DNA of 64,000 nucleotides from Pontiella desulfatans (GCF_900890425.1 NZ_CAAHFG010000002.1:558001-622000); one strand, 5' to 3'; counted from the stretch's first letter, positions 51,956 to 56,286 are shown. A program made the numbers and translations. The notes: generated from the letters alone by a model not told the origin.

Positions 51956-52543
51956 ATGAAAAATGGACGAAACAAAATTAATGAGATGATTACAGAGCGG
52001 ATGATTGAGCGGATTCAAACGACCGGGGAACTGCCTTGGCATAAACCATGGGTGTCGCAGGATGCGCGACCGCAAAACCTGATCAGTCGCAAGCCCTACC
52101 GGGGCGTGAATACGTTCCTGCTGCACATGATGGGCTACGCACAGCCGTTTTTCCTGACGATGAAGCAGGTGAACGGGTTGGGCGGCCATGTGCGCAAGGG
52201 CGAGAAGTCAATGCCGGTGATCTTCTGGAAGTTCGTGGATGCGGACAAGAAAGACCCGGAGAGCAAAAGCTATGCGATATTGCGCTACTACCATGTATTC
52301 AACGTGGCGCAGTGTGACGGAATTCCAGAAGGCAAGGTGCCGGAGTTGGAAACACCGGATCGGGAGATCAATCCGATTACAGATGCCGAGCAACTGGTGG
52401 CGGATATGCCGAACCGACCGGAAATCAAGTATGGACGGTCGTATGCAGCCTACAGCCCGCTGGGTGATGAGGTGCGTATGCCGTCGCCTGAAATGTTCCT
52501 GTCCGATGAAGCGTTCTATTCGACGCTTTTTCATGAGCTGACC
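51956..52543 (+). pseudogene. ardC: ArdC-like antirestriction protein, 5' part (split by RIT element)
   Basis: 196 codons of an ArdC-type protein: the N-terminal ssDNA-binding domain (LPWHKPWVSQDARPQNLISR, PYRGVNTFLL, GGHVRKGEKSMPVIFWKF, YYHVFNVAQCDGIP) and the beginning of the metallopeptidase domain up to FHELT. The frame then enters the inserted element at 52544 and stops at 52621. The rest of the gene resumes at 55999, and deleting 52544-55998 joins HELT to HSTGHKSRL in frame, giving 291 aa, normal for the family. ArdC proteins protect incoming DNA from restriction during conjugation. As it stands the HEXXH helix is broken (HELTH becomes HELTHY from element bases), so the truncated product is probably non-functional. 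Confidence 0.92.
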
Positions 52544-52570
52544 CATTATGCCGACACTGGGATTATGCCG
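52544..52570 (+). repeat. Left 27-bp terminal inverted repeat of the RIT element
   Basis: The exact reverse complement of 55944-55970; it begins CATTATGCCG and ends GATTATGCCG. A hairpin follows at once (gtaccgaa 52570-52577 with ttcggtac 52605-52612; inner stem caccctt/aagggtg). Confidence 0.95.
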
Positions 52571-52627
52571 TACCGAATGATTTCACCCTTGCAGTCAAAG
52601 GGTGTTCGGTACGGCCATTAGGCATAA

Positions 52628-53623
52628 TTATAGGCCTTCGAGGAAGGCGAGTAGCTTGTCAGCGGGGAGATACCGCCCTGGTTTCGAGGCCGTTGCCATC
52701 ACTTTTTCCAACGCCTTTTCCTTAAGGTGCAGATCGGCGTGCAGGTAGATTCTCGTTGTTTCAACGGATTCATGGCCAAGCCATAGCGAGATAACGGTTT
52801 GATCCACCCCGTGGTGCAGCAACTCCATGGCGGTGCTGTGCCGAAGCACATGCGGACTCACCCGCTTGGTCGCCAGCGAGGGGCAGGTTTTCGAAGCCGT
52901 GAGCGTATGCTTTCGCACAAGATGTTCCAGGGCGTCTCGACTGAGTTTCCCTCCCCTGATGGTTGGAAAGAGCGGCCCGTCTTCAGTTCCGCCATACCGC
53001 CGAAGCCAGTTCTTCATGACCAAAAGGGTTTCTTTCCTGAGAGGCGTGAGGCGCTGTTTTCGACCTTTACCCATACACTGGACATGCGCACCAGTTCCGG
53101 CAATGAGATCGCATTGGCATAGGTTGATTAGCTCCGATGCTCGAAGTCCGGTTTGCAGTGCCAGTGTCAGGATGGCATGATCGCGTTGCCCGATCCATGT
53201 GGACCGGTCCGGCGCAGACAGCAGCGCATCCATTTCCCGGCGGTCCAAAAACTCCACTGTACGTTGCTCATGGCGCTTGCTGGGCATGGACAGTATTCGC
53301 TGGCATTGGAGCAGGTATGCCGGTTCGGTCATGGCCACGAATTTGAAGAAGGACCGGATGGCGGCCAACCGGGCATTGCGGCTGCGGGCGCAGTTGCGGC
53401 GCTTGTTCTCAACATAGGCGAGGAAGTCGCCCACCAGTTCGGTATCCAGATCTTCGACCCGGAGTTTCGTCGGCACCTTGCCGTGTTGTTCCCCGGCAAA
53501 GCGCAACAGCAGGCGGAAGGTATCCCGGTAGCTGGCGATCGTATTGGGACTTGCGTTTATCTGGATGGTGAGCCGGTCGGTGAAGAACAGTTGAACCAGA
53601 GCGGGTAGTGTCAGCGCGTTCAT
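52628..53623 (-). CDS. RIT tyrosine recombinase C (third gene of trio)
   Basis: 331 aa. The catalytic tetrad is visible: Arg in LQTGLRASELINLCQ, Lys in CMGKGRKQRL, H-x-x-R in VSPHVLRHSTAMELL, His in WLGHESVETTRIYLH with the nucleophile Tyr. The N-terminal SAM-like core-binding domain is present. The start overlaps the stop of the second gene in an ATGA tetranucleotide (53620-53623), with Shine-Dalgarno gggaggtgg upstream. Family knowledge: the three recombinases of RIT elements act together; individual roles are not established here. Confidence 0.9.
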   Translation of the reverse strand: MNALTLPALVQLFFTDRLTIQINASPNTIASYRDTFRLLLRFAGEQHGKVPTKLRVEDLDTELVGDFLAYVENKRRNCARSRNARLAAIRSFFKFVAMTEPAYLLQCQRILSMPSKRHEQRTVEFLDRREMDALLSAPDRSTWIGQRDHAILTLALQTGLRASELINLCQCDLIAGTGAHVQCMGKGRKQRLTPLRKETLLVMKNWLRRYGGTEDGPLFPTIRGGKLSRDALEHLVRKHTLTASKTCPSLATKRVSPHVLRHSTAMELLHHGVDQTVISLWLGHESVETTRIYLHADLHLKEKALEKVMATASKPGRYLPADKLLAFLEGL

Positions 53624-54567
53624 GATTCCACCTCCCTTGCTGCGGATTCTTCCGCACGGCGGGACGCCAGTTCTAGCAGTTCAGGAGCCGCCTCGATGTA
53701 CCAGTAGGTGTGTGCGGGCTTTTCATGCCCGAGGTAGGTGACGAGCTTGATCATTTCCTGGGCCGGATCCTTTCCATCCCGGTACCAGTTGAGCATCGTG
53801 CGGACGGCGAAAGTATGCCGCAGGTCATGGATGCGCGGCCCGCGCCCGTGCCGGAAAAACTTCTGAACCGGTCGCAGCCCGACACGCTGACATACGATGG
53901 CGAAGTTGTAGCGGGCGGCGCAGGCGTCCAGCCGTTCCCCATGATCCGAGATAAAGAATGCCGAGGGTGTCGATTCGTTTAGCCGATCCCTTTCGACGGC
54001 ATAGGCAACCAGCCGTTCCGCTGTATCCGTAGAGACCGGCAGCAAGCGTTCCTTGCCCAGCTTTCCTTTTCGTACGGCAACGACTCCATTCTCGAGATCG
54101 ACATCGGCAACATTGAGCGAAACGGCTTCGCTGATTCTCATGCCGGTAACGGCGATGAGTCCGAAGAACGTCGAGTAGGTCAGCGGACGGATGCCGTTGC
54201 GGGAAGGAAGCTCCGCTGCGGCTTCAACGATCATCTTGATTTCCTCTTCGCTGTAGATGTAAGGCCGGGAGCGGCGGACATGGCCGGGTATCAGTGATTG
54301 CGGCGGCACTTCGTGGCGGGGGTCGATGCCGTGCATCCACTGGGCGAAGATTCTGACCACTGTCAGTCGTCTCGACCAGGTTTGCGTGTTTGCATGCCCG
54401 AATGCCTCCTTCCAGCGAAGGAAACAGCCGGTGCTGATGTGCGCCGCTTCTTCCTGCTCCATGAACTCGATGAACCTGCGAAGGATTCGTTCATCCGTAT
54501 TCAGTTTATACCCAAGGCCTCGCCGGATGGACAGGTAGCGCTCAAGCTCTCTATTCAAGGTTTTCAT
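53620..54567 (-). CDS. RIT tyrosine recombinase B (second gene of trio)
   Basis: 315 aa from ATG 54567, chosen for a strong Shine-Dalgarno (aaggaggtg) and ATGA overlap with the upstream stop; the frame extends to 54591. Catalytic residues: Arg in AVTGMRISEAVSLN, Lys in VRKGKLGKERLLPV, H-x-x-R in IHDLRHTFAVRTML, His in TYLGHEKPAHTYWYIE with the terminal Tyr. It is translationally coupled to the genes on both sides. Confidence 0.9.
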   Translation of the reverse strand: MKTLNRELERYLSIRRGLGYKLNTDERILRRFIEFMEQEEAAHISTGCFLRWKEAFGHANTQTWSRRLTVVRIFAQWMHGIDPRHEVPPQSLIPGHVRRSRPYIYSEEEIKMIVEAAAELPSRNGIRPLTYSTFFGLIAVTGMRISEAVSLNVADVDLENGVVAVRKGKLGKERLLPVSTDTAERLVAYAVERDRLNESTPSAFFISDHGERLDACAARYNFAIVCQRVGLRPVQKFFRHGRGPRIHDLRHTFAVRTMLNWYRDGKDPAQEMIKLVTYLGHEKPAHTYWYIEAAPELLELASRRAEESAAREVES

Positions 54568-55811
54568 TGGGCACCTCCTTCTCCGGGCCAAGGCAAGGCG
54601 ATTGATCGCAGGCCGTCCACATCCATCCGCGCATAGAGCATGGTTGTTGTCTGGCTCCGGTGGCGAAGCAGGTTGCTGACCTCGTCGAGTGATGCGCCCT
54701 GCCGCACGAGGTTGGTCGCCAGGCTATGCCGCAGTATGTGCGTACAGGTATACGGTATTGGCGGCGTCAGTCCGCTTTTCGCGAACGCTTTCACAAGAAC
54801 CGTATTCAGTACCTCGGCGTTTTTGAATGGCTTGTGCGGCGCGTGGTTCGACACGAAGAGCGTTCTCGACTCCGTGACCCGGTCGTTCCGGATGTACTCC
54901 ACAATGGCTTCGCCCACGTCGGTCGGAAGGGGAAGCCGGTCATGCCGACCGCCCTTGCCCCTGATGACGATCTCACCGGCCCTCCAGTCGATATCATCGA
55001 CTTGAATACGGATCACCTCCTGTGGACGCAACCCGAGCCGGGCGAGCAGCAGCACCATCGCATGGTTCCGTCGACTCGTAGGTTTATTGCCACGAACCGC
55101 ATCGACCAGGACTTCGGTTTGTTCGGAAGTCAGATGCACGGGCAACCGTTTCCCGTAGCACTGGGCCACGCTTGGAATGCCCTTGGCGAGGTTGGCCCCG
55201 TTTCGCTTGGTCTGGAACAGGAAGCGAAAGAAGCTCCTCAGGTGAGTGGAAACCGTCTTATTCCGTACCGGCGGTTTTCTGCCGGTTACATGCTGGAGGA
55301 AGTCAATGATGTCGGTCGCCGTGATTTTTGAAAGGTCTCCAGCCTCTTCACCGAAGCGGTATTCAAGAAAACGGTTTGCCTGGTGCCAGCAACCAAAGAT
55401 CGTACTTTCACTCAATCCGCGTTGTCGGCGCAGGTAGGATTCGTATTCCTTACGCAGTTCCTTTCTTGCGATTTCCTTCTCCGTCGGGGGAGGTGGAAGC
55501 TGTCCCACTCCCCGGTCATGCAGGAAGCGAACAAAGCGCTTTGCGATCGTGACGGCGTAGTAGTGACGTCCTTCGGGCCATCCCTGCCTGTCCACAAGAT
55601 CCAGAACCAATGCCTCGTTCAACTCCCCGACGGCGATTCCGTCTGCTTTCATGGTCGCCGCAAGAGCCCCCACGCACCGCATGTATTGCTGGACAGTATT
55701 GGTCACATAGTTGTGGCCGACAAGATATTGCCGGAAGGAGGACACGTGCTCCCCGAACAGTTCGCGGGCGGTTACATGGGCTTCATTCGTTGTTTGTTGA
55801 TGCGTATTCAT
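54564..55811 (-). CDS. RIT tyrosine recombinase A (first gene of trio)
   Basis: 415 aa from ATG 55811 (MNTHQQTTNEAHV), which follows aaggagcaaca; an upstream ATG at 55862 lacks a ribosome site. There is a long N-terminal extension with a SAM-like core-binding domain (LRKEYESYLRRQRGLSESTI). Catalytic residues: Arg in LARLGLRPQEVIRIQ, Lys in VIRGKGGRHDRLPL, H-x-x-R in THILRHSLATNLV, and RHRSQTTTMLYARM with Tyr. The Shine-Dalgarno is enclosed by a perfect 8-bp inverted repeat (55817-55824/55832-55839), suggesting translational repression. Confidence 0.9.
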   Translation of the reverse strand: MNTHQQTTNEAHVTARELFGEHVSSFRQYLVGHNYVTNTVQQYMRCVGALAATMKADGIAVGELNEALVLDLVDRQGWPEGRHYYAVTIAKRFVRFLHDRGVGQLPPPPTEKEIARKELRKEYESYLRRQRGLSESTIFGCWHQANRFLEYRFGEEAGDLSKITATDIIDFLQHVTGRKPPVRNKTVSTHLRSFFRFLFQTKRNGANLAKGIPSVAQCYGKRLPVHLTSEQTEVLVDAVRGNKPTSRRNHAMVLLLARLGLRPQEVIRIQVDDIDWRAGEIVIRGKGGRHDRLPLPTDVGEAIVEYIRNDRVTESRTLFVSNHAPHKPFKNAEVLNTVLVKAFAKSGLTPPIPYTCTHILRHSLATNLVRQGASLDEVSNLLRHRSQTTTMLYARMDVDGLRSIALPWPGEGGAQ

Positions 55812-55816
55812 TTGTT

Positions 55817-55839
55817 GCTCCTTATCGTTGTTAAGGAGC
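55817..55839 (-). promoter_or_regulatory. Hairpin sequestering the Shine-Dalgarno of the RIT operon
   Basis: On the minus strand GCTCCTTA is followed 7 nt later by TAAGGAGC, which contains the AAGGAG of the first recombinase gene, 5 nt before its ATG. The 8-bp stem is perfect. Confidence 0.75.
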
Positions 55840-55943
55840 AAATCGGAAACAAAACACAACATCTTGCAAGATCGATTCTTGCAATGTTATGCCGAATCAG
55901 TTTCTCGAATTCACCCGGCAATCAATTCCATTGAAACTCAATT

Positions 55944-55970
55944 CGGCATAATCCCAGTGTCGGCATAATG
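55944..55970 (-). repeat. Right 27-bp terminal inverted repeat of the RIT element
   Basis: Exact inverse of 52544-52570. The interval 55863-55943 between it and the recombinase leader is noncoding and holds one more TTATGCCG copy. Confidence 0.95.
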
Positions 55971-55998
55971 CGCCTTATGCCGATATCGGCATAAGGCG
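55971..55998. repeat. 28-bp perfect palindrome at the right edge of the RIT element
   Basis: cgccttatgccgat followed by its exact inverse atcggcataaggcg. It lies between the right terminal repeat and the resumed ardC codons and has no left counterpart. Confidence 0.9.
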
Positions 55999-56286
55999 CA
56001 CTCAACCGGCCATAAATCGCGTCTTGCGCGAAAAGGGATCACCGAAGTCAACCGGTTCCGATCGCATGAGTATTCTAAGGAAGAACTCGTCGCGGAAATG
56101 GGCGCGGCGTTTCTGTGCGGACATTGCGGGATTCTCCCTGAAGTTCAGGACAACTCAGCAGCCTATCTAAACTGCTGGCTGGAGCGACTGAAAGCGGACT
56201 CATCCATGCTGATCACTGCCGGACAGCAGGCTCAGAAGGCCTATGACTACATCACAGATTACAAACCCGCTATAGCAGTTGCCTGA
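55999..56286 (+). pseudogene. ardC: ArdC-like antirestriction protein, 3' part
   Basis: 95 codons and a stop continuing ardC: HSTGHKSRLARKGITEVNRF, EYSKEELVAEMGAAFLCGHC, NSAAYLNCWLERL, AGQQAQKAYDYI. The third zinc ligand region (EEL..E) is intact. There is no own start signal; an ATG at 56098 could give only a fragment. See 51956-52543. Confidence 0.92.

Follow-up and report, generated by a model that had tools for sequence, protein, structure and literature searches.

We analyzed a 64,000-nucleotide (nt) stretch of the Pontiella desulfatans genome (NZ_CAAHFG010000002.1:558001-622000; hereafter the window), in which an intact recombinase-in-trio (RIT) element splits an ardC gene between the HELT residues and the second H of the zinc motif HExxH. 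The element has three consecutive tyrosine recombinase genes on the minus strand, namely ritA (54564-55862; up to 432 amino acids [aa], as the start codon is uncertain and an alternative ATG lies at 55811), ritB (53620-54567; 315 aa), and ritC (52628-53623; 331 aa). Both gene overlaps consist of ATGA (4 base pairs [bp]; the RIT definition asks for 4-8 bp), the ATG start of ritB lying within the overlap with ritA. RitA, RitB, and RitC each have intact catalytic boxes (R, HxxR, LGH/LRH, and Y), and RitA displayed two N-terminal SAM-like matches (30-75, E = 2e-5, and 136-217). The recombinase genes fill positions 52546-55994, and no relaxase or other transfer gene, a trait of integrative conjugative or mobilizable elements, was found in the element. 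It is a true RIT element, with a target and an attachment logic that appear to differ from those of the RITs in the literature searched.

The 5′ part of ardC (51956-52545, plus strand) encodes the ArdcN single-stranded DNA-binding domain and the start of the zincin domain through HELT-CA and terminates at a 6-bp core; it matched ArdcN (PF08401, E = 1.7e-29) and the beginning of MPTase-PolyVal (PF18818). The 3′ part (56001-56286, plus strand), which runs from the second His of HExxH (H-STGHKSRL) to the stop codon, matched the remainder of PF18818. Removing 3455 bp and joining the flanks gave a 291-aa ArdC containing HELTHSTGHKSRL. This restored protein, whose start codon was picked by alignment to PDB 6I89, could be aligned nearly end to end with the solved ArdC of R388 (6I89/6SNA; E = 2e-44). 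The metal ligands of R388 ArdC are H201 and H205 of HExxH, plus E229 (PMC7213743), and the RIT insertion point lies between the codons of these two histidines. The original prediction had described three coupled tyrosine recombinases inserted into the active-site helix of an antirestriction protein, and both points were confirmed; the in-frame join that it proposed, of 52543 to 55999, yields the same DNA and the same 291-aa protein as joining at the left core.

Ends of the element and the crossover core

Inverted repeats of 27 nt (52544-52570 and 55944-55970) are 100% complementary, as had been predicted. The further claim that these repeats define the edges to the base did not hold, since the right repeat stops at 55970 and 30 bp more, comprising the palindrome and cores (TGCGCC-TTATGCCGATATCGGCATAA-GGCGCA, 55969-56000), precede the 3′ part of ardC. 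In the direction of ardC, the order is CATGAGCT-GACCCA-TTATGCCG...element...CGGCATAA-TGCGCC-TTATGCCGATATCGGCATAA-GGCGCA-CTCAACCGG. The insertion therefore has three 6-bp cores: a 5′ junction core (GACCCA, 52540-52545, plus strand), which encodes ..T-H and is probably the target's own core here; an inverted inner core (TGCGCC, that is, inverted GGCGCA; 55969-55974, plus strand), which we propose to be the fossil of an ardC target used previously; and a 3′ junction core (GGCGCA, 55995-56000, plus strand). The inner and 3′ junction cores are separated by the 20-bp palindrome (55975-55994), which has two inverted TTATGCCG sites and is conserved in relatives. Counted from the cores, the left terminal repeat (52546-52570, plus strand) has two direct TTATGCCG sites 17 bp apart, the right terminal repeat (55944-55968, plus strand) is its inverse, and a third, inverted site (GGCATAA, 52621-52627, plus strand) ends 82 bp inside the core edge at the left end.

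The same layout was seen in the relatives described below, where the two direct TTATGCC sites present at each element end were 17 bp apart in 58 of 59 5′ junctions and the inverted site, about 82 bp inside the end, fell at 81-84 bp in 54 of 59. The consensus core is NNNNCA, located in ardC as CAY GAR NN/NNNNCA/Y. In the window, the joint is ambiguous across this core (GACCCA on the left versus GGCGCA on the right); the crossover segment is the 6-bp core, and the terminal repeats do not mark the edges of the element. The exact palindrome had no match in viral contigs, and wider scans of 398, 397, and 395 genomes found it to be rare (5, 6, and 1 positive genomes, respectively, including genomes already known).

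Recurrent insertion into ardC

In the P. desulfatans genome, the 3.4-kb element occurs in four copies that are 99.9-100% identical and are distributed over three contigs; all of them interrupt ardC genes at the same codon. As the four interrupted genes are merely 56-72% identical in protein, the insertions were independent. The presence of four copies at different loci of one genome is a sign of mobility, and their near-identity, together with recombinase genes that are all open, supports the prediction that the insertion in the window is recent. The trio lies in each orientation relative to ardC in two copies, with the palindrome on the ardC 3′ side in all four. The genome also has seven uninterrupted PF18818 loci, in five of which the HExxH sequence was read.

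Relatives were gathered by RitA similarity, with ardC playing no part in their selection. They comprise 7 loci from plasmids and the 80 best of 178 from GTDB, and their insertion sites were read by tblastn with intact ArdC proteins. In the RitA tree, where window copies and some near-duplicates were collapsed, ardC was the insertion site in 61 of the 69 rows with a readable site; 14 further rows were unreadable, mostly because the contig ended at the element. Most relatives sit in an ardC gene broken at the second His of HExxH, and such insertions occur in Pseudomonadota, Bacteroidota, Verrucomicrobiota, Acidobacteriota, Thermodesulfobacteriota, and Planctomycetota, in addition to the window organism. 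An initial description of these relatives as an ardC-only clade was dropped in favor of "mostly ardC," as targets cluster weakly on the RitA tree and non-ardC targets are scattered. One locus (L126) has no recognizable ends, and other RITs with a similar palindrome adjoin IS66 transposase genes (L146 and L147), in agreement with the published IS66 target (PMC2864759). As read from these genomes, many RIT elements recurrently and site-specifically choose the HExxH codons of ardC, and the elements of distant relatives entered different ardC genes on separate occasions rather than representing one identical insertion fixed in all of them. The single insertion event envisaged in the original prediction is thus one member of a recurrent family.

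Several of these elements enclose other genes. The 8.1-kb RIT that occupies a yafY-like gene on p_3 of Rhizobium lusitanum (L045:680-8777) encloses genes annotated as ChrB, MFS transporter, PAP2, and DedA/PAP2, indicating that RITs can carry cargo. Among 45 ardC::RIT insertions, 20 are longer than 4 kb, and almost all of these hold additional genes. Judged by eye, those of L064 (4944-11853), L087, L110, L092, and L068 (ardC orientation) include a MerA-like reductase with a MerR-like regulator, a SulP-like transporter, an OYE-like flavin oxidoreductase, a KdsA-like protein, and a LysR-type regulator.

Polarity, orientation, and a model of integration

We located the palindrome at 59 junctions on the 3′ side; the 59 junctions read on the 5′ side all lack it. 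Since the 3′ search pattern itself required the palindrome, the observations independent of that pattern are the 5′ junctions lacking it, a 3′ junction discussed below (L123), and four hybrid loci. Three of the hybrids (L053, L090, and L099) have ardC 5′ halves on both sides and no palindrome, and the fourth (L079) has ardC 3′ halves on both sides and two palindromes, suggesting genome rearrangement between two ardC::RIT loci. In the 45 loci with both junctions, the trio runs opposite to ardC in 24 and along it in 21. Once the flanks are joined, the reading frame continues across HExxH in almost all of the 45 loci (the sequence of L089 being too short for a reading), and downstream frame breaks in L067, L075, L093, L094, L103, L108, and L109 reflect other causes or contig ends. 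This is the same joint frame as in uninterrupted ardC homologs, the comparison proposed in the original prediction.

We consider it likely that the RIT element integrates site-specifically into the HExxH codons of ardC via a circle whose attachment site is symmetric and has two cores. The element would circularize, and its joined ends would form a site with the order end, core 1, 20-bp palindrome, core 2, end. The Rit recombinases would then swap strands across the 6-bp core of ardC. The symmetry of the attachment site would make either core usable and let the trio land either way round, and the directionality of the ardC core would place the palindrome on the ardC 3′ side. Of the two junctions, one would then contain the core of the element and one that of the target, and the core left unused would persist within the insertion as a fossil from a previous target. 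Run backward, the same reaction would give back an in-frame ardC. What we infer here comprises the circle, the order in which strands are exchanged, excision, and what each Rit protein does; this symmetric-circle model explains the polarity, the random orientation, the three cores, the fossil codons, and the core swaps.

The last two features concern the inner core. There are 33 distinct inner cores, whose first four bases vary widely, and CA is almost invariant in all three cores of an insertion. In the HExxH frame, all 32 distinct inner cores ending in CA encode only G, S, I, V, T, C, A, M, or L, the small or nonpolar residues of position 4 in the HExxH of real ardC genes, compared with 11-25 of 32 in the other frames; the composition-matched p of about 4e-7 is indicative only, since the residue set was picked after seeing the data. 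Although the inner core has no contact with ardC, it can still be read as an ardC codon and so resembles the fossil of a target used before. In addition, L073 and L125 have 100% identical elements in different ardC genes and in opposite orientation, with the same pair of cores but with the inner and junction roles exchanged, and the same exchange was seen between L108 and L109, which belong to one metagenome-assembled genome.

Conceivably, the mix of orientations arose not by two-core integration but after insertion, with the trio being inverted when the 5′ core recombined with the inner core. This is geometrically possible, since the two cores are mutually inverted and both are flanked by TTATGCC sites, and the L108/L109 pair fits either course. 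However, inversion alone leaves the inner core of L073/L125 unmatched, whereas two-core integration explains all three cores, and we therefore regard inversion as an unlikely source of the mix. It is also rather improbable that the inner core with its CA is a fixed recognition sequence of the recombinase and no fossil. The near-invariance of CA in all three cores, including those of L045, whose target is not ardC, would suit such a sequence, but the other four bases vary widely, the inner cores keep the ardC codon constraint, and they swap with junction cores between sister copies.

Some observations weigh against integration into ardC via a symmetric circle with two usable cores. Neither the circle, nor excision, nor transposition was observed, the data being assembled genomes only. 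The palindrome is missing from the ardC 3′ junction of L123, which was the only clear contrary case encountered. Other near-identical pairs in opposite orientation show a partial core swap (L088/L089) or do not fit one (L066/L067 and L107/L109), which requires extra jumps. Regarding the target, L045 lies in a yafY-like WYL regulator gene with its flanks joined in frame; because its cores, too, terminate in CA, recombinase preference may account for some of the codon signal. For L077 and L119/L120/L124/L127/L128, the target is a different one or was not read, and the core of L110 is shifted.

An empty site was found for one plasmid copy. The joined ardC flanks of L043 (Agrobacterium plasmid pAt12D1) match an uninterrupted open reading frame (ORF) in the But002 and A. 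vitis F2/5 plasmids at 804 of 807 nt. The core of the empty site, TGTCCA, equals the 5′ junction core of L043, and therefore the 3′ core (CTTGCA) and inner core (TGGCCA) of L043 arrived with the element. Judged from this alignment, the exchanged segment is at most 6 bp and the site is otherwise unchanged. Similar searches gave no near-identical empty plasmid for the ardC of a Jiella plasmid and, within the genus of the window organism, only relatives at 64-70% for the ardC of L018.

The near-identical empty site also bears on the possibility that a single ancient insertion was co-inherited with ardC without repeated targeting. Orthologous insertion pairs do exist (e.g., L098/L102 and L114/L116), but elements 100% identical over 3.2 kb occupy ardC genes of 37-41% protein identity (L073/L125 and L108/L109), both orientations occur, and other ardC genes are intact in the same genome, making co-inheritance very improbable. 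Chance insertion into ardC as one of many possible genes is hardly credible: RITs are reported in radC, IS66 tnpA, and a Tn6049-related transposase gene, with ardC unmentioned in the available parts of those reports (PMC2864759, PMC3414803), and some relatives here are in IS66 or a yafY-like gene, but the recurrent, base-precise target (four of four genome copies and 61 of 69 readable relatives at the same motif) refutes it.

Relation to known elements and further observations

RIT elements were named around 2010, and the reports consulted describe their mobility as lacking experimental proof. In the reports on Cupriavidus metallidurans and other bacteria, published RITs share the ritA-ritB-ritC order, ATGA overlaps, a size of about 3.5 kb, a 28-9 bp inverted repeat with an overlapping palindrome, and multiple identical copies (PMC2864759, PMC3414803); the corresponding values of the window copy are a 3455-bp insert, a 27-nt repeat, and a 20-bp palindrome. 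Van Houdt et al. (PMC3414803) noted the inverted repeat and overlapping palindrome but were unable to match them to the usual sites; in our reading, the ends make up a double-core site that is symmetric. Both the movement of RITs and their target specificity have been listed as not tested (PMC10214605).

GInts and strand-biased circularizing elements (SEs) resemble RITs in having several cooperating tyrosine recombinases, target specificity, and a circular form; GInts in addition produce imperfect direct repeats at their flanks, and SEs contain a 6-bp spacer (PMC5385486, PMC10214605). They differ from RITs in having GinD/Srap and a non-catalytic Tfp/GinC protein and in being much larger, and a palindrome is unmentioned in these reports (PMC5385486, PMC10214605); the window copy, with only three genes between its junctions, has neither a conserved fourth gene (GinD/Srap) nor the large size of a GInt or SE. 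Tn554 is likewise a target-specific tyrosine-recombinase transposon with a 6-bp footprint (PMC10214605), but has other recombinases (TnpA/B/C).

Conserved active-site codons are also exploited by inteins and homing endonuclease genes as a landing site common to many hosts. These act by splicing or double-strand-break homing, not tyrosine recombination, and, unlike them, the RIT breaks its target gene. A literature search by title and abstract gave nothing relevant that links ardC or DUF1738 with recombinase insertion; recurrent ardC targeting and the double-core attachment logic were not found in the literature searched, and a prior description is possible.

With somewhat less confidence than the integration model itself, we favor the view that many RITs share the catalytic codons of ardC, which travels on conjugative DNA, as a cross-phylum landing site by means of a symmetric palindromic site with two interchangeable cores, a six-base record of an earlier target being kept at each jump. 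The benefit, we hypothesize, may be a conserved landing site on conjugative DNA. The family targets the metal-binding codons of an anti-restriction protein relevant to plasmid host range, and the anatomy gives a base-level model (target, core, polarity, and circle junction) open to a plasmid assay.

Interruptions of other kinds were seen in the same ardC genes. A second, different element, starting with CCTTATCTGGACAGTCTG or a near variant, re-interrupts the ardC 3′ halves of L067, L075, L094, L108, and L109, in every case at the EEL[VIL]A codons in the glutamate-helix motif of ArdC, so recombinase elements seem to target both metal-binding motifs of this protein. Where its loci were examined, the second element encodes a XerC/D-like recombinase and further large ORFs. 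The ardC 5′ half of L098 is also interrupted upstream by a sequence resembling the 3′ end of a group II intron. Near the ardC locus of the window, a caspase-like peptidase (PF00656) is fused to a sulfatase-modifying-factor-like domain (PF03781; 57313-58881).
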